Assembly: GCA_017651225.1 (NCBI GenBank)
Contig: JAGCDF010000049.1
Coordinates: forward strand, 1 to 32,832
Reading direction: 5' to 3'
DNA length: 32,832 nt
DNA from: Bacteroidales bacterium
Lineage (GTDB): Bacteria; Bacteroidota; Bacteroidia; Bacteroidales; UBA932
Shown: piece after piece, positions 19,023 to 32,036 of the stretch
How the letters are laid out: every line of letters begins with the position of its first letter
Position numbering within the stretch: the first letter of the stretch is position 1
The notes under the pieces: model-generated
What the model was told of the DNA's origin: nothing
The model's database searches: none
Seen by the model: only the letters and a program-made list of their open reading frames with translations
Translations under genes and position numbers: made by a program

Positions 19023-19032
19023 GCTATCTTTG
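19005..19032 (+). promoter_or_regulatory. Promoter of the cobalamin-riboswitch transcript
   Basis: TTG (19005-19007), 17 nt, TATCTTTG (19025-19032). The -33 element is inside the upstream terminator stem. Transcription should start near 19038, just before the riboswitch. Confidence 0.65.
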
Positions 19033-19039
19033 CGCCGAA

Positions 19040-19150
19040 GTTTGTGGTGCGTTGCTTTTGCAACCGTAAAGGGGAATCCGGTGAGAGCCCGGAGCTGTGC
19101 CCGCAACGGTAAGATTTCCATCGAGTCCGAATACCTGCCACGAACGAAGT
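19040..19150 (+). ncRNA. Cobalamin (AdoCbl) riboswitch
   Basis: Conserved core AGGGGAATCCGGTGAGAG...CCCGGAGCTG...CCCGCAACGGTAA, then GTCCGAATACCTGCCAC as the B12 box. Between it and the btuB ATG are GGTGGCC-N8-GGCCGCC (19159-19180) and a small hairpin TTAGC-GAC-GCTAA (19180-19192) beside the start codon. This suggests translational control by blocking ribosome access; no T-run terminator is seen. It represses the downstream transport genes when B12 is plentiful (family knowledge). Confidence 0.93.
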
Positions 19151-19194
19151 TGATACCGGTGGCCCGGGGTCAGGCCGCCTTAGCGACGCTAATT

Positions 19195-20991
19195 ATGTTC
19201 TTTTCTACCTTATTGATTGCGGCGGGTCTGCTGGTGGCAGAAACGCCGGATACCCTCCAGGCCGTCACCATCGTGGCCGACAAGGGTGTCGTGGTGTCCA
19301 GGACGGACACCCTTGCGCTGCGCGCCGACGGGACGGCCGCCCAGGCGCTCCTTCGTTTTCCCGGACTTTCCATCAGTGACTACGGCGGACTCGCCGGCCT
19401 GAAGAGCGTCAGCCTCCGTGGCCTCGGCACCGCCCACACCGACATCTACCTCGACGGCGTGCGTGTCAGCAACTTCCAGAGCGGTCAGAACGACCTCGGC
19501 ATGCTCCCGATGGAGACGCTCGGCATCGCCGTGGTGGACTACGCGCAGAACAGCGTGTCCTTCCGCACCGCGAAGCCGGTCTTCGGCGACCGCATCTTCG
19601 GCGGCCAGGTGGGCCTGCAGGCCGGTTCCTTCGGCACCTGGATGCCCTCCGCCCGCTTTGATATCAAGGCTTCCGAGCGCGTGAGCGTCAGCGCCCACGC
19701 CGCCGGCGTCATCACCAAGGGCGACTTCCCTTACGGCGCGAACAACGAGCGCCGCACGGGCAATGACCTCAGACAAATCCGCGCCGGCGCCGACGTCTTC
19801 GGCGTCCTTGACGGCGGTGACTGGCACGCCAAGGCCTACTACAACGCCTCCGACCGCGGCACGCCCGGCTCCCTGAGCTGGCCGTCCTCCGACCGCCAGC
19901 AGGACAGGAACTTCTTCCTGCAGGGCGCCTTCCGCAAGGCTTTCTCCGACCTGTACACCCTGAATCTCAGCGCCAAGGCCGCCTGGGACGACCTCTTTTA
20001 CAAGAGCGAGTGGGGCGACAGCGACTACAACTTCAGCGACTTCCAGCTGAACGCCTCCCACGGCTTCCGCCTGACGGACTGGTGGAGCCTCTCGCTGGCC
20101 ACGGACATCGAGCGCGGCTCCCTGAAGTCCACCGGCTACAACGCCGCCCGCACGGCTGCCATCGCGGCCATCGCGACGGCCTTCCGCCTGGGCTGGTTCA
20201 GCGCCGACCTCGCCGTGGAGTACCGCGGCACCTTCGACAAGGGGCAGAAAGCGCTGAACAGCGTCTCCCCTTCCCTGGACCTGCGCTTCACCATCTTCGA
20301 GGGCTTTGACCTCGTCGCCTTCGGCCGCCGCGCCTTCCGCGCCCCGACCTTCAACGAGCTCTACTACCCCGGCTACGGCAACCCGAACCTCAAGCCCGAG
20401 GACGCCTGGCTCGCCGACGTGGGCATCGATTTCCACCGCGGCCTGTGCGAGAACTGGACGCTCGGCATCAAGGTGGACGGCTTCTACAACTCCCTGCAGA
20501 ACAAGATCATCTCCGCGCCGTCGGCCGACGATCCCTACGTCTGGCTGCCGTACAACGTCGGCAAGGTCGAGGCCAAGGGCATCGACGCGGCCCTGAGCCT
20601 GCGCTATGACGACGGCCGCTTTGCCGGCGGCTTCTCCGCCCGCTACGCCCGCCAGTCCGCGCTCGACAAGACCCCGGACAGCTACACCTTCGACCAGCAG
20701 ATCCCGTACGTGGCCAAGAACACCGTCGTGCTCGCCGCGGACGCCGCCATCGCCGGCTGGCGCCTCGACGCCGTCTGGAACTGGCGCGGCGGCCGCTTCG
20801 ATGCCTCCGGCGAAATGCCGGACTGGAACACGCTCGACCTCACGCTGCGCAAGGATTTCACCCTCGGCAACGTCGGCGTGCTTTCGCTGAACGTCACGGC
20901 CCGCGACCTGCTGAACTGCCGCTACGAACTGGTGCGCGACTACCCGATGCCGGGCCGCTCCTTCCTCGGCGGATTCACCTTCAAGTTCTAG
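19195..20991 (+). CDS. btuB: TonB-dependent vitamin B12 receptor, BtuB-like
   Basis: Outer-membrane receptor of 598 aa. The start MFFSTLLIAAGLLVAETPD is preferred; a longer in-frame reading begins inside the riboswitch. A short signal peptide (about 1-16) is followed by TonB box DTLQAVTIVADK and the plug domain (about 40-140, ALLRFPGLSISDYGGLAGLKSVSLRG..TDIYLDGVRVS). The beta-barrel ends with the aromatic terminus GGFTFKF. The RAFRAPTFNELYYPGYGNPNLKPE segment is the usual BtuB/siderophore receptor hallmark. The cobalamin riboswitch directly upstream makes corrinoid uptake the most likely role. The permease gene follows after 4 bp. Confidence 0.92.
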   Translation: MFFSTLLIAAGLLVAETPDTLQAVTIVADKGVVVSRTDTLALRADGTAAQALLRFPGLSISDYGGLAGLKSVSLRGLGTAHTDIYLDGVRVSNFQSGQNDLGMLPMETLGIAVVDYAQNSVSFRTAKPVFGDRIFGGQVGLQAGSFGTWMPSARFDIKASERVSVSAHAAGVITKGDFPYGANNERRTGNDLRQIRAGADVFGVLDGGDWHAKAYYNASDRGTPGSLSWPSSDRQQDRNFFLQGAFRKAFSDLYTLNLSAKAAWDDLFYKSEWGDSDYNFSDFQLNASHGFRLTDWWSLSLATDIERGSLKSTGYNAARTAAIAAIATAFRLGWFSADLAVEYRGTFDKGQKALNSVSPSLDLRFTIFEGFDLVAFGRRAFRAPTFNELYYPGYGNPNLKPEDAWLADVGIDFHRGLCENWTLGIKVDGFYNSLQNKIISAPSADDPYVWLPYNVGKVEAKGIDAALSLRYDDGRFAGGFSARYARQSALDKTPDSYTFDQQIPYVAKNTVVLAADAAIAGWRLDAVWNWRGGRFDASGEMPDWNTLDLTLRKDFTLGNVGVLSLNVTARDLLNCRYELVRDYPMPGRSFLGGFTFKF

Positions 20992-24089: not shown

Positions 24090-24528
24090 CTATGAAACGG
24101 ACATCTCCCTGCCCGAGCGCTGCCGTCGAGTAAACGAGTGCTGCCGCCAGCTGGGCAAAGACAACGTCCTCCTCATCTCCATCCACTGCAACGCCGCCGG
24201 CCGTGGCGACCGCTGGCTCACCGCCCGCGGCTGGTGCGCCTACACCACCCGTGGCAACACCCGGGCCGATGCCCTCGCCACCGCCCTCTACATCGCCGCC
24301 CAGATCCATATCCCGGACCACCGCCTCCGGATGGACTGGACCGACAAAGACCCCGACATAGAGTCGAATTTCTACCTGCTGCCCCACACCGCGTGCCCGG
24401 CAGTCCTCACAGAGAATATGTTTATGGATGCAAAGGCCGATTGCGACTTCCTCCTCTCCCCGGAAGGCCAGCAAGCCCTCATCGACCTTCACGTCACCGG
24501 CATCAAATTCTATCTCGCCATCCGCTGA
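24073..24528 (+). pseudogene. N-acetylmuramoyl-L-alanine amidase (Amidase_3) fragment, copy 1
   Basis: The open frame begins just after a stop at 24070-24072 and has no start codon before the conserved part. It retains SYETDISLPERCRRVN, LLISIHCNAAG (zinc-ligand His), RGWCAYTTRGNTRADALA, and CPAVLTENMFMDAKADCDFL up to a normal C-terminus. The N-terminal 60 or so residues with the DPGHG zinc ligand and the catalytic-site Glu region are missing, so it cannot be an active peptidoglycan amidase. A second truncated copy at 30207-30548 is closely similar. Such amidases are common cargo of Bacteroidales mobile elements and prophages. Confidence 0.8.
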
Positions 24529-24616: not shown

Positions 24617-25468
24617 TTACTTCTTGCGCAGGTTGTTCAGCAGCCCCTCAAAGGCATTGACACCCTCGTTGACGGCTTTCTCAATGTCATCATGGGATAC
24701 CTTGTTCTGGCTGGCTTCACCTGCCTCCTTGGAGGTCCTGCCCAGCAGGCCTTCCAGCTGCGACATCATTTCCACTTGCTTGGACATGTCGTTCACCACG
24801 AACTTATACCCCTGCGGCAGTTCAAACACCTCGGGATAGGGATTGCTCAGGTGGATGTTCCGCAGATAGGTCTTGATGCCGCTCTCGTCTTTCAGGATGA
24901 CGATACCGGTCTCCAGGTCCGTGTACGTGGTCTCAGACCAGGCTCCGCTGTCTTCAGTGTGGATAACCCGGCGCATATGGCACCAGCGGCCGGCTTCCGG
25001 CACAATTTCCACCTTGGCCTCATTCTGGGTGCGGGTCGTTGTCATCGTACCGGCCACCGCCTTTAGGGCATCGGTCGGAATCTTGGTGATGGTCTTTGTC
25101 TCATCGTTGATCTTGTAGATGGCCAGGCTGTCCGGAATAGAGAGTTCCTTGAGGATTTCCTGTTTGCCGGTGGCGGGATTCACGCCGAAACTTACGGTGT
25201 ATTCCCGTTTTGTCACAGCGTCATAGAACACCTTGGCCGGGTAGCCTTCATTGCTGATTCGATAGGCGCAGTACGTGACGGTAACAGCAGGCTCCCGGAG
25301 CTCCGGTTTCTCGCTGTTGTCATTCTTCGGCAATCCCAGAGCCACCTCGCCCGCGCTTTTCGGCACGTCAAAATAGGTGTAGGGGTTGGGAACGCCGCCC
25401 GTACCCTGGGCAAGGGCTGCACTGCACGCCATAGCGAGCAGGGACTGTATCAAGAGGGTCTTTTTCAT
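24617..25468 (-). CDS. Secreted protein of unknown function (operon gene 5)
   Basis: 283 aa with a signal peptide (about 1-21, ending AALAQ). The mature part is mixed beta sheet: YCAYRISNEGYPAKVFYDA, REYTVSFGVNPATGKQEILKE, then GRWCHMRRVIHTEDSGAWSETTYTDLETGIVILKDESG (in part). Next is PYPEVFELPQGYKFVVND and an amphipathic helix-rich tail (about 225-283, ending FEGLLNNLRKK). The RRVIHT..TTYTDLETGIVILK arrangement is like the recurring beta-hairpins of LolA/DUF4412-type envelope proteins; this is a visual impression only. Last gene of the five-gene operon; its ATG overlaps the preceding stop by 4 bp. I do not recognise a family. Confidence 0.75.
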   Translation of the reverse strand: MKKTLLIQSLLAMACSAALAQGTGGVPNPYTYFDVPKSAGEVALGLPKNDNSEKPELREPAVTVTYCAYRISNEGYPAKVFYDAVTKREYTVSFGVNPATGKQEILKELSIPDSLAIYKINDETKTITKIPTDALKAVAGTMTTTRTQNEAKVEIVPEAGRWCHMRRVIHTEDSGAWSETTYTDLETGIVILKDESGIKTYLRNIHLSNPYPEVFELPQGYKFVVNDMSKQVEMMSQLEGLLGRTSKEAGEASQNKVSHDDIEKAVNEGVNAFEGLLNNLRKK

Positions 25469-26322
25469 TTCTTTGCAGGTTTGTCAGTGAATGCGGTAAC
25501 CTCCCACAAGGCCACGTTATTGACGTTCATACCGGCAGCGCCGCCGGATTTCACAACCTTGTAGAGGAAGTCATACTGCGCATCCACGTAATATTTCTTT
25601 TCGATGTGTTTTCTCACGCCCAGCAGGTTTTCGTCCACCTCTGTCTCAATGACCTTGACGGGACGGCCGCACAGCGTGGTTTCACTTTGGGCATAGGAGG
25701 CACCTGCGTGATAGTTCAGCGGGCCGTGGTCGCCTTGCGTCATCCAGTTCAGCAGGTAGCTTTCTGCGGTCTTGTCATCCGTATGTGAGCGGGAAAGCTT
25801 GCCATTCATATACTGCTTCACGTGACGTTTTCCGTCTGCGGCGAATTCACAGACCGTTTCCACAACAGTACCGGAAGCCTCTTCGGTACGGATGCGCACG
25901 GTATTGCCCGTCCGGCTTACAATATGCCTTGCATCTGAAGATGCGTCGCGCTTTCCGCTCATCGAATAGGTATAACTCTGGATCGTCATTGAGAAGTCCC
26001 GGTCATACCACATTCCCGACGCAGCGGGAATCTCATCCGGTTCTTGTTCCGCCTGCTCTACCTCTGCAGCTTCCTCTTCTGCCTGGTCTCCCAATTCTTT
26101 TGCAAGAGCCCCTATCAAATCCTTGAGGAGGCCTTTACCTTCTTCCAGGATCTGCGACGGTTCTTTCCCGGAACTGATGGGCGTAGCCGTAGTCGCCGGT
26201 TCCTCCTGCACCACCTCGGGCTGGACATCATCCTGATTGGCAGTTTTTCCCTGCCGGTTCTCGTTGAACCCGCAGGAGGAAACGATGATGGATAAGCCCA
26301 GTAAGAGGAGAATCCTTCTCAT
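25465..26322 (-). CDS. Lipoprotein of unknown function (operon gene 4)
   Basis: 285 aa. Lipoprotein signal MRRILLLLGLSIIVSSCG with Cys17. A linker rich in Gln and Glu (about 18-100) contains a predicted helix (ILEEGKGLLKDLIGALAKEL). The C-terminal sheet domain (about 105-285) includes MWYDRDFSMTIQSYTYS, SGTVVETVCEFAADGKRHVK, TTLCGRPVKVIETEVDENLL and KKYYVDAQYDFLYKVVKSGG. This last half parallels operon gene 5 (a CGRPVKVIET-like strand, then a YYVDAQ/TYTDLET strand), so the two may be distant paralogues (inference). The start overlaps the preceding gene's stop by 1 bp. Probably anchored in the outer membrane. Confidence 0.75.
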   Translation of the reverse strand: MRRILLLLGLSIIVSSCGFNENRQGKTANQDDVQPEVVQEEPATTATPISSGKEPSQILEEGKGLLKDLIGALAKELGDQAEEEAAEVEQAEQEPDEIPAASGMWYDRDFSMTIQSYTYSMSGKRDASSDARHIVSRTGNTVRIRTEEASGTVVETVCEFAADGKRHVKQYMNGKLSRSHTDDKTAESYLLNWMTQGDHGPLNYHAGASYAQSETTLCGRPVKVIETEVDENLLGVRKHIEKKYYVDAQYDFLYKVVKSGGAAGMNVNNVALWEVTAFTDKPAKK

Positions 26323-26942
26323 TACTTGTTAAGCTGCTTGTCAGCTTCTTTGACAGCCTCTTCAACCGACTTGGTGATACCGTCGATGAAGGTGGCCTCA
26401 ATATAGTTGCCCTTCGGAGCGTAAATCTTGCATACCCAGAACTGGTCCTTCATACGGTAGCACCATTTGGGTTCGGTTGCCGTGAGGATCTTGTTCAGGT
26501 CAGCCTCGTCCAGTGCGTGGGCCGGGTCGTCATTGGAAAATCCGAAGCCGAGGACGTTCTTGCCATCCTGGGACTTGGACTTGGTGAAATCATACAGTTT
26601 GCGGATATAGGCTTCCACCTCTTCGGGGGTATAAGCGCCTTCGGCCTTCTTATAAGTGACCCTGGCCATATGACCGGGCTCGGGCATACCGCTGAACTCG
26701 GTTTTGGCGGCATCGTAGGGAGCGTCGAGCTTCACGTCAGCGAATTTGAAACCATAGTCGCGCTGGATCACAGCCTCGAACTGCTCGTTCGGAGTCATAT
26801 CCTTATAGGCCTTGGCAGCAGGTTTGGCGGCTTCCTTGGCGGGTTCATTATTAGCAGCGGCTTTCTTGTTGTTGGAATTGCCACCGCAAGATACCGCAGC
26901 CAGCAGGGCTGCAAACAGGAGGATGTTCGTTAATTTTTTCAT
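26322..26942 (-). CDS. Lipoprotein of unknown function (operon gene 3)
   Basis: 206 aa with lipobox LAAVSCGG (Cys19), an Ala/Lys-rich linker (KKAAANNEPAKEAAKPAAKA), then a single mixed domain (about 45-206). Recognisable stretches are PNEQFEAVIQRDYGFKFADV, HMARVTYKKAEGAYTPEEVEAYI (in part), WCYRMKDQFWVCKIYAPKGN and YIEATFIDGITKSVEEAVKEAD (in part). No family recognised. It lies 11 bp downstream of the OmpA-like gene and 1 bp overlapping the next lipoprotein gene, so it is co-expressed with both. Confidence 0.75.
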   Translation of the reverse strand: MKKLTNILLFAALLAAVSCGGNSNNKKAAANNEPAKEAAKPAAKAYKDMTPNEQFEAVIQRDYGFKFADVKLDAPYDAAKTEFSGMPEPGHMARVTYKKAEGAYTPEEVEAYIRKLYDFTKSKSQDGKNVLGFGFSNDDPAHALDEADLNKILTATEPKWCYRMKDQFWVCKIYAPKGNYIEATFIDGITKSVEEAVKEADKQLNK

Positions 26943-26953
26943 GATTAGTGTAT

Positions 26954-28273
26954 TTATTTTTTGATGAATTCAACTCTGCGGTTCTTGGCCTTGCCCTCGT
27001 CGGTGCTGTTATCAGCAATGGGTTCGTGTGAGCCTTTACCAACTGCCGTGAGACGGGAGGCATCAATGCCATTGGACACCAGTGCGGCCACGATGGCCTC
27101 AGCACGTTTCTGACTCAGTGGATCGTTGACGGCATCAGAGCCAGTCTTGTCGCAATGGCCCTGGACCTCAAATTTGAGGGAAGGGTCGTCCTGCATCAGC
27201 TTGGTGATACGGTTGATTTCCACGGCGGCCTCCGGTTTCAGAGTGGCCTTGCCGGTGTCGAAGGTGATGGCATAGGTGACAATCTTTCCCTCGCTGGCCA
27301 AACGGTCGTACAGCGGCACGGCACCCTTGCAAATCTTGAAGTTGGTAAGATATACAGTTTGGTTACCGTTTTCCATCATGATATTGAACCATCCCGGAGC
27401 CATGGACACATTGGGGAGATTGATGTGCCTCTCGCCGTCAAAATACACCTTGAGCGCCCGCTTGTTGAAGGAGATAGCAATGTGGTGCCACTCGTTCGGG
27501 GACAGCAGCAGACCGTCCTTTGTGCCCTGGTTCCTGCCGGTGGAGGACTGCCAGGCCCATTCCAGACGGCCGTCGTCGATGCACTTGTGGATGTAGAAAC
27601 ACTCCTTCATCTTATCTTCCGGAGCCAGGAAGGTGAAATACAACCAGGTATTGTAGCCGGTCTTGTCATCCGGCCACAGCCAGTCGAACTCCACGGTAAA
27701 GACGTCGCCGAGGAAATTCAACGGTTGCTTCATCAGCGGGAACACCTTGGTCCAGCGCTTGTTGAACACCATTGCCTTCTTGCCGCCGACTTCCACCACC
27801 TCGGTCTCTCCGTCCATCAGTTCCCACATGGAGGGGAACTCTCCCAGCTGCTCGCCATCCATCGGATCATCGAAGATCACCTCGTCGCCGGGGACGAAAT
27901 CGCTCTTGGCATAAGCCGTCGCAAGAGCCTTGTTCTGGGGAGCCTGTCCGGCCTGTGCAGCAGCGCCTTCCGGCTTCTTGGCTCCGCACTCCGTGCAGAA
28001 TTTGCCCGTATTCACGTGGCCGCACTCCGGGCAGGACCAGTTGCCATCGGTTGCTGCCGCCGCTGCGGGTGCGGTCTGCTGCTCGGTCTGCGTCTTATCT
28101 TTCTTGACTACTTTTCCATCCAACACATCATTGACACCCTTCTCCACTTTCTTTCCCACGTTCTGTTCAACAGCGTTCTTGGCCCTGTTGCCCAGGCGTT
28201 CCAATAAACTTTGTGCGTTCGCGCTCGCGCAAGTCAGCGCAGCAGCGGTAATGAGTAGTACGATCTTTTTCAT
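26954..28273 (-). CDS. OmpA-family protein with zinc ribbon and LamG-like domain (operon gene 2)
   Basis: 439 aa. Signal peptide (about 1-20), amphipathic helix (LLERLGNRAKNAVEQNVGKKVEKG, in part, 22-48), then a four-cysteine zinc ribbon CPECGHVNTGKFCTECG (Cys81, 84, 93, 96). A concanavalin/LamG-like sandwich follows (about 130-315, VFTVEFDWLW, EWHHIAISFNKRALKVYFDG). The C-terminal OmpA domain (about 333-439) has AITFDTGKATLKPEA, VQGHCDKTG, LSQKRAEAIVAAL and KNRRVEF, the peptidoglycan-binding pattern. So it can tether the outer membrane to peptidoglycan. The zinc ribbon is a cytoplasmic-type fold in an exported protein, which is unusual. It lies 24 bp after the small LuxR gene, and no separate promoter is seen. 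Confidence 0.88.
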   Translation of the reverse strand: MKKIVLLITAAALTCASANAQSLLERLGNRAKNAVEQNVGKKVEKGVNDVLDGKVVKKDKTQTEQQTAPAAAAATDGNWSCPECGHVNTGKFCTECGAKKPEGAAAQAGQAPQNKALATAYAKSDFVPGDEVIFDDPMDGEQLGEFPSMWELMDGETEVVEVGGKKAMVFNKRWTKVFPLMKQPLNFLGDVFTVEFDWLWPDDKTGYNTWLYFTFLAPEDKMKECFYIHKCIDDGRLEWAWQSSTGRNQGTKDGLLLSPNEWHHIAISFNKRALKVYFDGERHINLPNVSMAPGWFNIMMENGNQTVYLTNFKICKGAVPLYDRLASEGKIVTYAITFDTGKATLKPEAAVEINRITKLMQDDPSLKFEVQGHCDKTGSDAVNDPLSQKRAEAIVAALVSNGIDASRLTAVGKGSHEPIADNSTDEGKAKNRRVEFIKK

Positions 28274-28297
28274 ATCAATTGGGAGTTAAACAAAGAC

Positions 28298-28522
28298 TTA
28301 GACAAGATTTTGCTCTATGGCAAAACGGATGAGCTGAGCTGTGGTTTCCACTTTGAACTTCTTCTTTAACTTCATCCGGTACCACTTGATTGTTGCGAAT
28401 TTTAACCCCGTCGCTTCAGCAATCTGGGCGCTGGTTTTTCCATCGCTGATCATGCGGATAATCTGGTGTTCCGTCTTGGAAATCCGGATGGTATTTTCGT
28501 CTTCTGTGATAACCATACTCAT
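28298..28522 (-). CDS. Small LuxR-family HTH regulator (operon gene 1)
   Basis: 74 aa, essentially a bare LuxR/GerE helix-turn-helix: ISKTEHQIIRMISDGKTSAQ, IAEATGLKFATIKWYRMKLK, then KKFKVETTAQLIRFAIEQ. It has no sensor domain. The recognition-helix region TIKWYR matches that of the divergent TPR-LuxR protein, so both may bind the same palindromes. First gene of the five-gene operon. A near-consensus box (TACTTTG, 28541-28547 on the minus strand) lies 19 nt upstream. Confidence 0.88.
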   Translation of the reverse strand: MSMVITEDENTIRISKTEHQIIRMISDGKTSAQIAEATGLKFATIKWYRMKLKKKFKVETTAQLIRFAIEQNLV

Positions 28523-28570
28523 TGCGTTTATTTCACATTACAAAGTACGTGATTATCAAGGAGAAAAACA

Positions 28571-28608
28571 CCATCCAAAGGGATGGTATCCTCTATCCGT
28601 TTGGATAG
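28571..28608. promoter_or_regulatory. Two tandem palindromes, candidate LuxR operators
   Basis: CCATCC-AAAG-GGATGG (28571-28586) and CTATCC-GTTT-GGATAG (28593-28608). Both are perfect 6-bp half sites with 4-bp spacers. Their centres are 22 bp apart, about two helical turns, so two dimers would sit on one DNA face. They lie 39 bp upstream of the TATCTTCG box (28647-28654) of the TPR-LuxR gene and about 24 bp upstream of the small LuxR box. Confidence 0.6.
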
Positions 28609-28646
28609 AAATATGCATTATTTTAGGGTGTACGCGCGAAATGTTG

Positions 28647-28654
28647 TATCTTCG
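28647..28654 (+). promoter_or_regulatory. -7 box of the TPR-LuxR gene
   Basis: TATCTTCG, one mismatch from TAnnTTTG, only 4 nt before the ATG at 28659. So the mRNA would be nearly leaderless. This supports the start MKKFLLT over longer in-frame starts. Confidence 0.5.
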
Positions 28655-28658
28655 TAGT

Positions 28659-29861
28659 ATGAAAAAGTTCCTTCTCACCTGCCTGTTTTTCTGCCTGCTC
28701 GGGGCTGCGTTGTCCCGTGCCCAATACATCGACCACCGGGACCACGAACTGGACTCCCTGGAACGTTTTGTCATCGGCTGGACGCCAGAAAGAATCGCCG
28801 CATCCGACGACGAAGACTGTACAGCGCTGGCGGAAGCCTATTCCGGGCTGATGTGGGGGTATATGCAGATCAACCCCGACCGGGGATTGTTTTTCGGGCG
28901 GAAACTGCTGGCGCTGGGGATTCGCAAGGACTGGCTCTGGCGGCAGTTCGACGCCAATCGCGTCATCGGCCAGTATCACTATGCGAAGGGACAATACGAC
29001 AGCGCCTTCTTCTACTACAATGCCGCGCAGGCCGTCATCGACCGTATGCCCGGCCGTTACGAGCAGGCGAACATCGACGATGTCCAGTCCCAGCTGTATG
29101 GGACTGTCGGCAATCTGTACAATGTCCTGGACTCCATCCCCAAGGCCATGGAATACTACCGGAAGGCCGGGGAAATCTTCGAGCGATACGGCTGGCTGAA
29201 CAACAGTTCCGTCCTCTATCACAATATGGGCGAGACCTACCTGGAAGCAGGAGACCTCCAGGAAGCCGGAATTTGCTATGAAAAGGCCCTGCAGTATGGG
29301 CAGGAAGCGGCCGACTCCCTGCTGATCGCCGATGCCCTCTCAGGCCTGGGAGCCCTCTATCTGGAAGAAGGCAGGACCTACCAGGCGCTTCGTCATCTCC
29401 AGGAAGCCGACGCATACTACTCCACCCATCAGGACCAGGAATTCGGCCGACGCATCGAGGCACTCGACCTGATCGGCAGAGTGTTGAAGGCGCAGAAACG
29501 CCAGTTATGGGCGATGGTGGCCGGCGGTTTTGTCATCATCCTGCTGCTCACCGGTTTCGTCCTCTTACTGCTGCGCAGCCGCCGCCTGCGCAAGGAAAAG
29601 GACGCGGCTGACGAAGTCATCGACCAGGCCCTCGAACAAGCAGCGCCACGCATCGTTCTGGAGAACGATGCCGACCTCACCGACCGCGAGCGCGAAATCC
29701 TGCCCCTTCTGGCCGAAGGCCTCACCAGCAACCAGATAGCCGACAGACTCTACCTGTCGCAACCCACCATCAAATGGTATCGCAGGCGTCTGCTGGATCG
29801 CTTCGATGCCAAAAACACCGCCGAAATGCTCTCCAAAGCCCGCGAACAGGGGTTGCTATAG
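28659..29861 (+). CDS. Membrane-anchored TPR-LuxR transcription regulator
   Basis: 400 aa. Signal sequence MKKFLLTCLFFCLLGAALSRAQ, then four or more tetratricopeptide repeats (about 90-275, e.g. YHYAKGQYDSAFFYYNAAQ, LYNVLDSIPKAMEYYRKAG, LYHNMGETYLEAGDLQEAG, LGALYLEEGRTYQALRHLQ). A single membrane helix (about 284-304, MVAGGFVIILLLTGFVLLLL) leads to a short basic coil and a C-terminal LuxR HTH (about 340-400, LTDREREILPLLAEGLTSNQ, IADRLYLSQPTIKWYRRRLL). The TPR part is thus outside the cytoplasm and the HTH inside. Divergent from the five-gene operon, with two palindromes between them. A periplasmic signal reaching a membrane-tethered DNA-binding domain is inferred. This TPR-TM-LuxR architecture is common in Bacteroidota. 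Confidence 0.88.
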   Translation: MKKFLLTCLFFCLLGAALSRAQYIDHRDHELDSLERFVIGWTPERIAASDDEDCTALAEAYSGLMWGYMQINPDRGLFFGRKLLALGIRKDWLWRQFDANRVIGQYHYAKGQYDSAFFYYNAAQAVIDRMPGRYEQANIDDVQSQLYGTVGNLYNVLDSIPKAMEYYRKAGEIFERYGWLNNSSVLYHNMGETYLEAGDLQEAGICYEKALQYGQEAADSLLIADALSGLGALYLEEGRTYQALRHLQEADAYYSTHQDQEFGRRIEALDLIGRVLKAQKRQLWAMVAGGFVIILLLTGFVLLLLRSRRLRKEKDAADEVIDQALEQAAPRIVLENDADLTDREREILPLLAEGLTSNQIADRLYLSQPTIKWYRRRLLDRFDAKNTAEMLSKAREQGLL

Positions 29862-30206: not shown

Positions 30207-30548
30207 TGCGCCGCCGGCCGAGGCGACCGCTGGCTCACCACACGCGGCTGGTGCGCCTACACCACCCGTGGAAACACCCGGGCCGATGCCCTTGCCACCT
30301 CCCTCTACACCGCCGCCCAGGCCCACCTCCCCGGCCAGCGCCTCCGCACCGACTACACCGACGCCGATCCCGACCTCGAGAAAGACTTCTACCTCCTCCG
30401 CCACACCGCCTGCCCTGCCGTCCTCACCGAAAACCTCTTCATGGACAACCCCGCCGACTGCGCCTTCCTCCTCAGCCCCGAAGGCCAACAGGCCCTCGTT
30501 GACCTCCATGTCGACGGTATTTGCGCCTACCTGGCCTCCGTCGCGTAG
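30207..30548 (+). pseudogene. N-acetylmuramoyl-L-alanine amidase fragment, copy 2
   Basis: Retains only the C-terminal part: AAGRGDRWLTTRGWCAYTTR, GNTRADALATSLYTAAQAHL, TDADPDLEKDFYLLRHTACP, VLTENLFMDNPADCAFL and stop at 30546-30548. Similarity to copy 1 (24073-24528) starts abruptly at the position matching CNAAG. The sequence before it is the hairpin region, not amidase, although the frame is open. The zinc-binding N-terminus and the SIH motif are gone, so it is inactive. It is in the same orientation as copy 1, with the LuxR divergon between them. Confidence 0.75.
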
Positions 30549-30570: not shown

Positions 30571-30620
30571 CTATCCCGGGCGAAATGTAGGGCAAATACG
30601 CCCTGTTTCGCCCGCTATAG
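30571..30620. repeat. Left-end hairpin, also at the ATPase gene's 3' end
   Basis: CTATCCCGGGCGAAATGTAG-GGC and GCCCTGTTTCGCCCGCTATAG form an imperfect hairpin around AAATAC. The ATPase stop codon lies inside the right arm, so it may also terminate that gene. Confidence 0.6.
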
Positions 30621-32036
30621 GAACAGGTCTGCCATGGTGACCTGACTGTTGACTACATCGGAATAACCGTTCCTATCCAAGCCGTAGGTGGTGATGAATG
30701 TGATGAACAATCCCTTTTTGGTTCCGGTCTCCCGGCGAAATGCTTCGCTGCGGTTGTTCAGTTTGAGGAATTCGTCTTTTGAAATGGCGTATGTCCCGTT
30801 GGAATACTTGACCTCGCAGAGATTGATATTCCCGTCAGCCCTGTCGATGGCCAGGTCCACCTGGGCGCCCTGGGGAGATTCAGTGCTGCGCCAGGAATAA
30901 TACTGGGTAAGGATGCGGTCCACGCCAATGGCTTTCAAGATCTGCGGGATATGTGCCATCGCCACCCGCTCAAAGGCAAGGCCGTACCATGTGTTTTGTA
31001 CAGGAGTGTTCAGCGTATTGCTCCAGTAGCGAGCGTCGGTTATCCTCTTTGTGAGGAAGGTCTGGTGGAAGATGGAGTAGAAGTCCACCAGCTGGTACAG
31101 GCCGCCCGTCGCCCTTACGCTCTTACCAATCAAGTTGTAATAGCGGATGAAGTCACAGTTGACCAGGTCTTCCAAGATGTCGCCGAAGTGGCCGTTGTCG
31201 TTGACTTTCAGTTTCTTTGCAAGCTCTCCGCGTGTCATTCCTTTCCGGCTTCCGGAAAGGGTCTTGATGACAGCCTTGTATTTGTCAGGGCTGCTGAACA
31301 ACGATTTGTAGAGCCGGTCGAATTCCCTTGCCAGGGGTGCCTCTTTCCCGAAAAATAGCTTGTCAACGTTCTCGGTAAGGCTCTTGTTCCTGTCCAGCAT
31401 ATCCAGGTAATAAGGTACGCCGCCAATAATCATATAAGTCTGAAGGACGCTGATGTCAGTCCATCCGAACCCACTCAGGCGGAGGTATTCGCGTGTCTCA
31501 CCCAGCGTGAACGGGAAAAGGTGTTTTTCGTGGGTGATCCTGTCGTGCAATCCGCCTTTGTTGTCGATGATGTTCCGGATGATCCAGGAGGTGGCGCTGC
31601 CGCAGACAATCAGGAAGACTTCGGGATGTTTGCTGCCCCAGGTGTTCCAGAAACGGTCCACAGCCTTAACCAGGCTGCTCTTGGGAGTAGCCAGACAGGG
31701 CAGTTCGTCTATGAATACGACCAGACGCTTACCGGGGACAAGTTTTTGCTCAAGCAGGTCCCGGAGCGCTTCGAATGCATTCATCCAGGAACGGGGTTTA
31801 CGCCCTTTGTATCCGCATCTGCGAAGGTCTTCTGTAAAAGCGGCGAGTTCTTCCTCCTGTGTCCCCCCGATGATGCCAGAGGTGGAGAATGCATATTCTC
31901 TGCCGAACAAACTATCCACAAGGAAAGTCTTTCCCACGCGCCTTCTGCCATAGACGGCAATGAACTCCGGCTTTCCGGAATCGTAGTATCTCTTGAGTTC
32001 GGCAATTTCTTCCTGCCTACCGAATATATGGTCCAT
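30615..32036 (-). CDS. AAA ATPase with C-terminal DUF234-type nuclease-like domain
   Basis: 473 aa from the ATG at 32034-32036 (MDHIFGRQEEIAELKRYYDS). A TTG start 18 bp upstream (32052-32054) would overlap the -7 box and is rejected. Walker A GRRRVGKT (about residue 30), Walker B LVVFIDELP (about 108), then sensor-like VCGSATSWII. A winged-helix region follows (about 270-310, SGSRKGMTRGELAKKL). The C-terminal part has GAQVDLAIDRADGNINLCEV then KYS, the (D/E)xK-like core of the DUF234 domain found in archaeal-type ATPases. Such ATPases are abundant and often multicopy in Bacteroidota and Archaea; their role is unclear. Promoter box TATCTTTG at 32052-32059 on the minus strand. Sits alone between inverted repeats. 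Confidence 0.88.
   Translation of the reverse strand: MDHIFGRQEEIAELKRYYDSGKPEFIAVYGRRRVGKTFLVDSLFGREYAFSTSGIIGGTQEEELAAFTEDLRRCGYKGRKPRSWMNAFEALRDLLEQKLVPGKRLVVFIDELPCLATPKSSLVKAVDRFWNTWGSKHPEVFLIVCGSATSWIIRNIIDNKGGLHDRITHEKHLFPFTLGETREYLRLSGFGWTDISVLQTYMIIGGVPYYLDMLDRNKSLTENVDKLFFGKEAPLAREFDRLYKSLFSSPDKYKAVIKTLSGSRKGMTRGELAKKLKVNDNGHFGDILEDLVNCDFIRYYNLIGKSVRATGGLYQLVDFYSIFHQTFLTKRITDARYWSNTLNTPVQNTWYGLAFERVAMAHIPQILKAIGVDRILTQYYSWRSTESPQGAQVDLAIDRADGNINLCEVKYSNGTYAISKDEFLKLNNRSEAFRRETGTKKGLFITFITTYGLDRNGYSDVVNSQVTMADLFL

Follow-up and report, generated by a model that had tools for sequence, protein, structure and literature searches.

In membrane one-component regulators such as ToxR and CadC, a single protein combines periplasmic sensing with cytoplasmic DNA binding, and stand-alone GerE exemplifies a bare helix-turn-helix (HTH) protein of the GerE/LuxR family; we know of no general code for LuxR-type DNA recognition. 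The FimS-FimR system of Porphyromonas gingivalis has a periplasmic tetratricopeptide repeat (TPR) sensor domain and exerts positive control over surface genes; the signal of this sensor class is unknown even for FimS (PMC11053733). Here we analyze a 32,832-nucleotide stretch of Bacteroidales DNA (contig JAGCDF010000049.1, the whole of which we call the window), in which the gene of a TPR-LuxR regulator, TPRX, diverges from a five-gene operon that starts with a small LuxR gene, lux, and continues with genes for exported proteins, the cargo. The evidence is sequence-based and comprises the recurrence of this module, a dyad in its divergent gap, the spacing of the dyad, a match between recognition helices and operators, the distribution of helix classes within genomes, cassette exchange, and relatives that contain a kinase. 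We consider it likely that the block is a member of a modular cassette family, in which TPRX would be a membrane one-component regulator acting on a matched dyad and the cargo an envelope set.

The block and its regulators compared with known systems

TPRX (28659..29861, plus strand) is a protein of 400 amino acids in which an N-terminal hydrophobic stretch, predicted to be a signal peptide, is followed by TPR repeats, a hydrophobic segment (residues 282–310), the sequence RSRRLRKEK and a C-terminal GerE HTH; a longer open reading frame (ORF) begins at 28341, which is not the start of the gene. This order of segments predicts a periplasmic TPR part and a cytoplasmic HTH. As in FimS-FimR, TPRX would have a periplasmic TPR sensor and would act positively on surface genes. 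The FimS model NF053520 matches TPRX over residues 120–254 with 36.5 bits, far below its cut-off of 600, and two of the kinase relatives described below with 35.3 and 59.6 bits. Unlike a sensor kinase, TPRX has no kinase family in Pfam, the kinase being present in the relatives from genomes G118, G181 and G285; unlike a response regulator, lux (28298..28522, minus strand, 74 aa) has no receiver; and the cargo of TPRX modules is not the fim cluster. With ToxR and CadC, TPRX has in common the predicted union of sensing and DNA binding in one protein, whereas the order is opposite (HTH C-terminal) and the HTH is of the LuxR type rather than winged. Within the GerE/LuxR HTH family (PF00196, cut-off 23.5 bits), lux is a bare HTH member (45 bits) and TPRX ends in such a domain (51 bits); the two differ from the family in having no autoinducer or receiver domain and in the pairing of the small protein with a helix-matched membrane regulator. 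An autoinducer-binding domain, as in quorum-sensing LuxR proteins, was not listed by Pfam for lux or TPRX, and TPRX also falls outside MalT, since TPR_MalT reached 27.1 bits against a cut-off of 45 and no ATPase was listed.

An earlier note, made from the letters of this DNA, had described the five-gene operon and the divergent TPR-LuxR gene, and the sequence bears out the six genes together with the gaps and overlaps it gave. All on the minus strand, lux is followed after 24 bp by the gene of an exported OmpA protein (26954..28273), and this after 11 bp by that of lipoprotein A (lpA, 26322..26942), which overlaps the gene of lipoprotein B (lpB, 25465..26322) by 1 bp; the latter overlaps by 4 bp the gene of a secreted protein (sec, 24617..25468). 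The OmpA protein combines an N-terminal stretch containing a CxxC motif, a LamG-like domain (Laminin_G_3, 34.6 bits) and an OmpA domain (PF00691, 88 bits). Its zinc ribbon is present as a motif only (CPEC...CTEC), the best Pfam score being 14.9 bits against a cut-off of 27.3. Among the 45 OmpA family members longer than 350 aa, the strict CxxC...CxxC pattern occurs in 12, and the Asp and Arg of the OmpA motif, which serve peptidoglycan binding, in all 45. The remaining products, lpA, lpB and sec, had been thought to match no family, and indeed none scored above cut-off in Pfam or NCBIfam. A LolA/DUF4412-like fold for sec and lpB was considered and not shown: the sec-versus-lpB profile probability was 21%, the single DUF4412 match (E 0.024) fell on a related NZR protein, and in a mixed alignment of 9 members PepSY appeared in 2 (best E 0.0037) and a DUF3108-like match in 1.

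TPRX modules in other genomes

Among 101 genomes of the window's genus, its own included, 68 matched TPRX at E ≤0.001 and 39, counted from the list, at E ≤1.8e-58. A scan of named genomes, in which 80 of 140 relatives were kept, traced these 80 to Bacteroidales, Bacteroidia or similar metagenome-assembled genomes, many from rumen, omasum, reticulum, abomasum or horse faeces; Candidatus Cryptobacteroides onthequi (L230) is among them. With redundancy judged by identity across a 100-aa stretch of TPRX, 116 non-redundant modules were obtained, mostly from ruminant-gut Bacteroidales. The nearest called upstream gene lies on the opposite strand, and is thus divergent, in 94 of them, is co-directional in 17 and could not be determined in 5. 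In 87 of the 94, the divergent neighbour is lux or belongs to one of the listed cargo families, and the gap exceeds 300 bp in 6. The HTH is present in 115 of the 116 TPRX proteins, 10 of which are shorter than 370 aa; among the 106 of at least 370 aa, a hydrophobic segment precedes the HTH in 94 and a DHR-type motif lies near the N-terminus in 93. This recurrence as a modular family argues that the arrangement in the window is more than chance.

The called operons of the 116 modules encode a small LuxR in 54 cases, an OmpA/LamG protein in 49, lpA relatives (clusters F4 and F28) in 20, a sec relative in 10, an lpB-type protein in 10 and a peptide of 41–48 aa in 9. Lipoproteins of about 490–800 aa from clusters F16, F29 or F121 occur in 8 modules, and BspA-type repeats were found in the tested F16 and F121 members, and the tested F29 member had no match. 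The label lpA had first been given to 31 proteins, many of which matched only the lipoprotein signal, and was therefore restricted to F4 and F28. In the nearest relative (G008:C48, L114), whose TPRX is 87% identical to that of the window over the sensor part, the order is lux-lpA-sec without OmpA and lpB, and a second module in the window's own genome (contig C28) has lux-OmpA-F8 with a divergent TPRX. The earlier note had proposed recurrence of the gene order as a check, and here it fails: the exact five-gene order was seen only in the window, the cargo being shuffled across the 116 modules, and a fixed order as a rule was rejected. A search of 12 genomes for the small LuxR returned 16 matches at E ≤4e-15 that we read as small LuxR genes; 15 lie inside TPRX modules, and the sixteenth (L052) neighbours an OmpA gene where its contig ends. 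Three weaker matches to short frames were left unassigned. In the open papers searched, no account of such modules, or of LuxR in Cryptobacteroides, was found, the matches being off-topic by title.

Single modules showed further features. In nine modules, among them L180 (2259-2387) and L122 (3504-3635), the short peptides of 41–48 aa are related to one another and share the pattern EYLAPExEV; several sit between lux and a large lipoprotein, and one that was tested had no Pfam match. L055 (G008:C42) contains two small LuxR genes with a co-directional TPRX, and on the short contig of L205 there are two TPRX of unlike helix classes (QTIKWYRM and QTIKWRRQ). L042 and L053, from other families of the order, have a conserved 262–269-aa gene, an OmpA/LamG relative and a conserved exported protein, in that order.

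A dyad in the divergent gap

Two operator dyads are predicted between lux and TPRX in the window, CCATCC-AAAG-GGATGG (28571..28586) and CTATCC-GTTT-GGATAG (28593..28608), 22 bp apart. The 94 divergent modules gave 91 gaps of 60–400 bp, and 58 of these contain a perfect dyad whose 6-bp arms are separated by 4 bp, compared with a mean of 5.0 and a maximum of 11 in 100 dinucleotide shuffles and with 2–14 for the other spacers from 0 to 11; by pattern, 78 of the 91 gaps contain a dyad. In 56 of the 73 gaps with room for it, CAAA, which on the cargo strand is the TTTG of a sigma-ABfr -7 box, precedes the dyad by exactly 30 bp from start to start, leaving 26 bp between the two (shuffle maximum 7), and 15 of the 18 pairs in two-dyad gaps, the window included, are spaced by 22 bp. 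When 16-mers were taken by this anchor, in 54 of the 91 regions, 276 of 324 arm pairs were complementary against a maximum of 243 in 2000 re-dealings; the anchor was meant to lessen circularity, its 30-bp offset having nonetheless been learnt from dyads. Within the window's own genome, its 21-bp pattern with up to two mismatches occurs only in two module gaps and in one overlapping chance pair.

The sigma-ABfr promoter elements are TAnnTTTG at -7 and TTTG at -33 (PMC7366714). Predicted -7 elements lie in the window at 28541..28548 on the minus strand for the lux/cargo promoter (GTACTTTG) and at 28647..28654 on the plus strand for TPRX (TATCTTCG), the latter 4 nt before the TPRX ATG. In 48 of the 91 gaps (shuffle maximum 6), TAnnTTYG is found no more than 22 nt from the start of TPRX, and in 38 of these 48 it ends 4–5 nt before the start codon; with the box so close to the start, the TPRX mRNA may be leaderless.

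Two other roles for the dyad were weighed. Instead of an operator, it could be a site where cassettes recombine or insert when they are exchanged, and cassettes are indeed exchanged between similar flanks (see below); however, the dyad sits within the module, its distance to a promoter element is constant and its arm sequences go with residues of the regulators, which makes this idea barely credible. Alternatively, TPRX and lux could be antagonists at one dyad, one repressing and the other activating, and the dyad would then be a switch and not an amplifier. The helix residues common to both proteins and the paired dyads, spaced by 22 bp in this and other modules, would suit such a switch, but the dyad lies around the -33 region, on the upstream side of the -7 box, as is usual for activators, and many modules have no called lux; we hold antagonism to be unlikely, though worth keeping in view. 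In co-directional modules such as L153, L155 and L247, there is a further operator type, CCACAT-N4-GTGTGG with an equally spaced TTTG, and a different TPRX helix, TVLWYR.

Recognition helices and operator arms

The operator arms fall mainly into the classes CCACCC; CTATCC/CCATCC/CTATAC; CTAAAC; and TTATAC. In the set of 72 TPRX of 370–440 aa used for the tree and the match (L222 was left out as unclassed), residue 369 is Glu in 32/32 proteins when the right arm starts with GGG and in 0/40 otherwise, and the corresponding position of the small LuxR is Glu in 19/19 and 0/22, respectively. At loci with both proteins, position 376 of TPRX and lux is Met in the CTAAAC class (3/3) and Gln in the TTATAC class (3/3). 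Normalised mutual information with the operator was highest for TPRX column 369 among 404 columns, and columns 376, 368 and 367 were within the top nine. These patterns point to a probable recognition code, in which the operator arms follow the helix residues of both regulators. A single lux clade was not rejected (p-AU 0.75), and the free tree of 60 columns requires 5 label changes; given a single clade, the lux and TPRX matches would be separate lineages.

The match bears on a further alternative, that the dyad serves the small LuxR alone or another regulator, TPRX acting elsewhere and being a mere neighbour. In 42 of the 94 divergent modules the divergent gene nearest to TPRX is lux, and under the right-arm rule the lux helix agrees with the operator class in every case. 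Yet the dyad is also present in modules without a called lux (L190, L199 and L121, for example), and the TPRX helix matches the dyad in lux-less modules too, so that we judge this alternative very unlikely and retain TPRX as a regulator at the dyad.

Pairs of modules with the same helix class were rare inside one genome (1 of 24, where 7.3 would be expected; P 0.0004, from 56 modules); an earlier count, which omitted 14 unreadable helices, had given 0 of 11. This rarity fits insulation between paralogues, and may also reflect loss of same-class duplicates or missing contigs.

Flanks of the block and cassette exchange

The block is bordered by two 5'-truncated Amidase_3 pieces on the plus strand, at 24097..24507 on the left and 30249..30524 on the right, which are 81% identical to each other as direct repeats over 306 bp; truncated amidase copies on both sides were among the features that the earlier note had pointed out. 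L231 (JAEEQF010000132.1) resembles the window in its left flank (83% over 508 bp) and right flank (91% over 243 bp), and its amidase end is 93% identical to the window's right amidase piece over 312 bp, while its module consists of a TPRX 45% identical to that of the window, a CTAAAC operator and sec-like, lpA-like and F22 cargo. L206 aligns with the tRNA-Ala side of the window in pieces that total 4295 bp and carries a TTATAC module. Genomes G112 and G081 have the neighbourhood in common with the window up to tRNA-Ala, and no TPRX, LuxR HTH or OmpA match was found in the 9.7 and 4.1 kb, respectively, fetched beyond it. To judge by these four comparisons, the block is an accessory cassette, which agrees with the suggestion of possible transferable cargo.

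The block could instead be an ordinary, vertically inherited and immobile envelope operon, the amidase repeats being a chance local duplication. In line with this, TPRX is at least 64% identical in 21 of the 22 locus pairs that have DNA in common on both flanks, and the 1.54 Mb of DNA around the modules contains 25 tRNAs, no obvious excess over the usual genome density. Such inheritance is at odds with the L231-window pair, in which common flanks enclose a TPRX of 45% identity, other cargo and another operator class, and with the tRNA-Ala that is followed by no module match in G112 and G081 and by a different module in L206; we regard it as distinctly unlikely and keep the accessory cassette as our interpretation. 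The tRNA density did lead us to reject tRNA integration as a general rule, and the amidase was rejected as a general flank, being found besides the window only in L231. No recombinase was recognised by eye among the called window genes, for which no dedicated search was made.

Elsewhere in the window, a 473-aa protein whose start looks AAA-type ATPase-like by eye is encoded at 30615-32036, to the right of the second amidase piece. A Cobalamin riboswitch (61 bits) at 19028-19156 shortly precedes a 598-aa gene at 19195, which by eye resembles a TonB-type receptor.

Kinase relatives and the origin of TPRX

Across 198 genomes of the order, three matches outside the genus stood out, in G118, G181 and G285 (E ≤4.6e-65; the next match had E 2.9e-26). 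These proteins contain TPR, the signature YSDHRNR, and HisKA_3 and HATPase domains, are followed by a receiver-GerE regulator, and diverge from a gene whose product starts like a lipoprotein by eye. G285 and G181 have the dyad TCCCCC-AAAT-GGGGGG (5/6 pairs), 27 bp from TTTG, and Glu at the 369 position; G118 has CCCCCA-CAAT-TGGGGG (6/6), 28 bp from TTTG, and Asp at that position, and its dyad falls inside the longest kinase ORF, yet upstream of the start suggested by the signal peptide. The three pairs thus have YSDHRNR, the TPR sensor, the divergent lipoprotein gene, a C-rich dyad and Glu/Asp at 369 in common with TPRX modules, and differ from them in the dyad-TTTG distance (27–28 versus 26 bp) and in having the sensor and the DNA-binding domain on separate proteins linked via kinase and receiver.

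Such relatives suggest that in TPRX a two-component pair has been reduced to a single protein, the kinase and the receiver probably having been lost from a FimS-like pair of TPR kinase and response regulator. We would place the pair before TPRX because the range of TPRX is narrow. The fuller scenario, in which a two-component system collapsed, a detached HTH became a co-regulator and the result radiated into exchangeable cassettes with mutually orthogonal regulator-operator pairs, seems to us evenly balanced between right and wrong.

Proposed mechanism

Topology, binding, activation, the role of lux, the signal, the function of the cargo and the direction of evolution are the parts of the model that we infer. 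TPRX would sit in the inner membrane and read an envelope signal through its periplasmic TPR domain, while the LuxR HTH on the cytoplasmic side would bind the dyad between the divergent promoters. Bound TPRX would have its centre near -42, about 38 bp upstream of the G in TTTG, and from there would activate the lux/cargo promoter in a class-II-like manner and may adjust its own; activation is preferred to repression because of the position of the dyad. Where present, the small LuxR would use the same operator through its matched helix and amplify or tune the response. The cargo would be an envelope set of exported proteins, each cassette would have its own operator variant that insulates paralogues, and regulator, operator and cargo would be exchanged together as a cassette between genomes.

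Several observations weigh against this model. Activation over repression is read from the dyad position alone, and 13 of the 91 gaps have no dyad under the pattern used; in co-directional modules the dyad differs and is less perfect, and TTTG is not always present. The called upstream operon lacks a small LuxR in 62 of the 116 modules, a figure that overstates absence: in L117, for example, lux lies downstream of TPRX. The helix-operator match corresponds to few changes on the tree (2 for TPRX, 4 for lux), and an independent-pairs test found 1 supported pair, with significance out of reach. TPR columns 79, 98, 155, 267 and 75 are among the top seven in mutual information, and the five of the top nine outside the helix are all TPR columns. 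The first classing of operators gave one exception, L245; the right-arm rule, read from the cargo-proximal dyad, has none, but was picked after that exception had been seen. Only 41 of the 106 TPRX of at least 370 aa passed the N-terminal hydrophobicity cut, perhaps in part through wrongly called starts, and crude export prediction was positive for 142 of 200 cargo proteins versus 328 of 786 flanking genes. On the other side, the LuxR-controlled envelope set of the earlier note is borne out in so far as two LuxR proteins and exported cargo recur and the dyad tracks both recognition helices; its interpretation of the block is partly supported, the operator and the two-component link having been missed there.

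Taken together, the envelope genes of gut bacteria that are probably Cryptobacteroides seem to be arranged in interchangeable cassettes. Each would pair a membrane-spanning sensor-regulator of its own with a DNA switch to match, and several cassettes in one cell seem able to operate without cross-talk. The 72 regulator-operator pairs, with the second regulator as an internal check, offer a recognition code concrete enough for testing. The modules hint, too, at how uncultured gut Bacteroidales could keep several exchangeable envelope programmes running in parallel, and they tie the FimS sensor class to a one-protein version, which should be easier to study.

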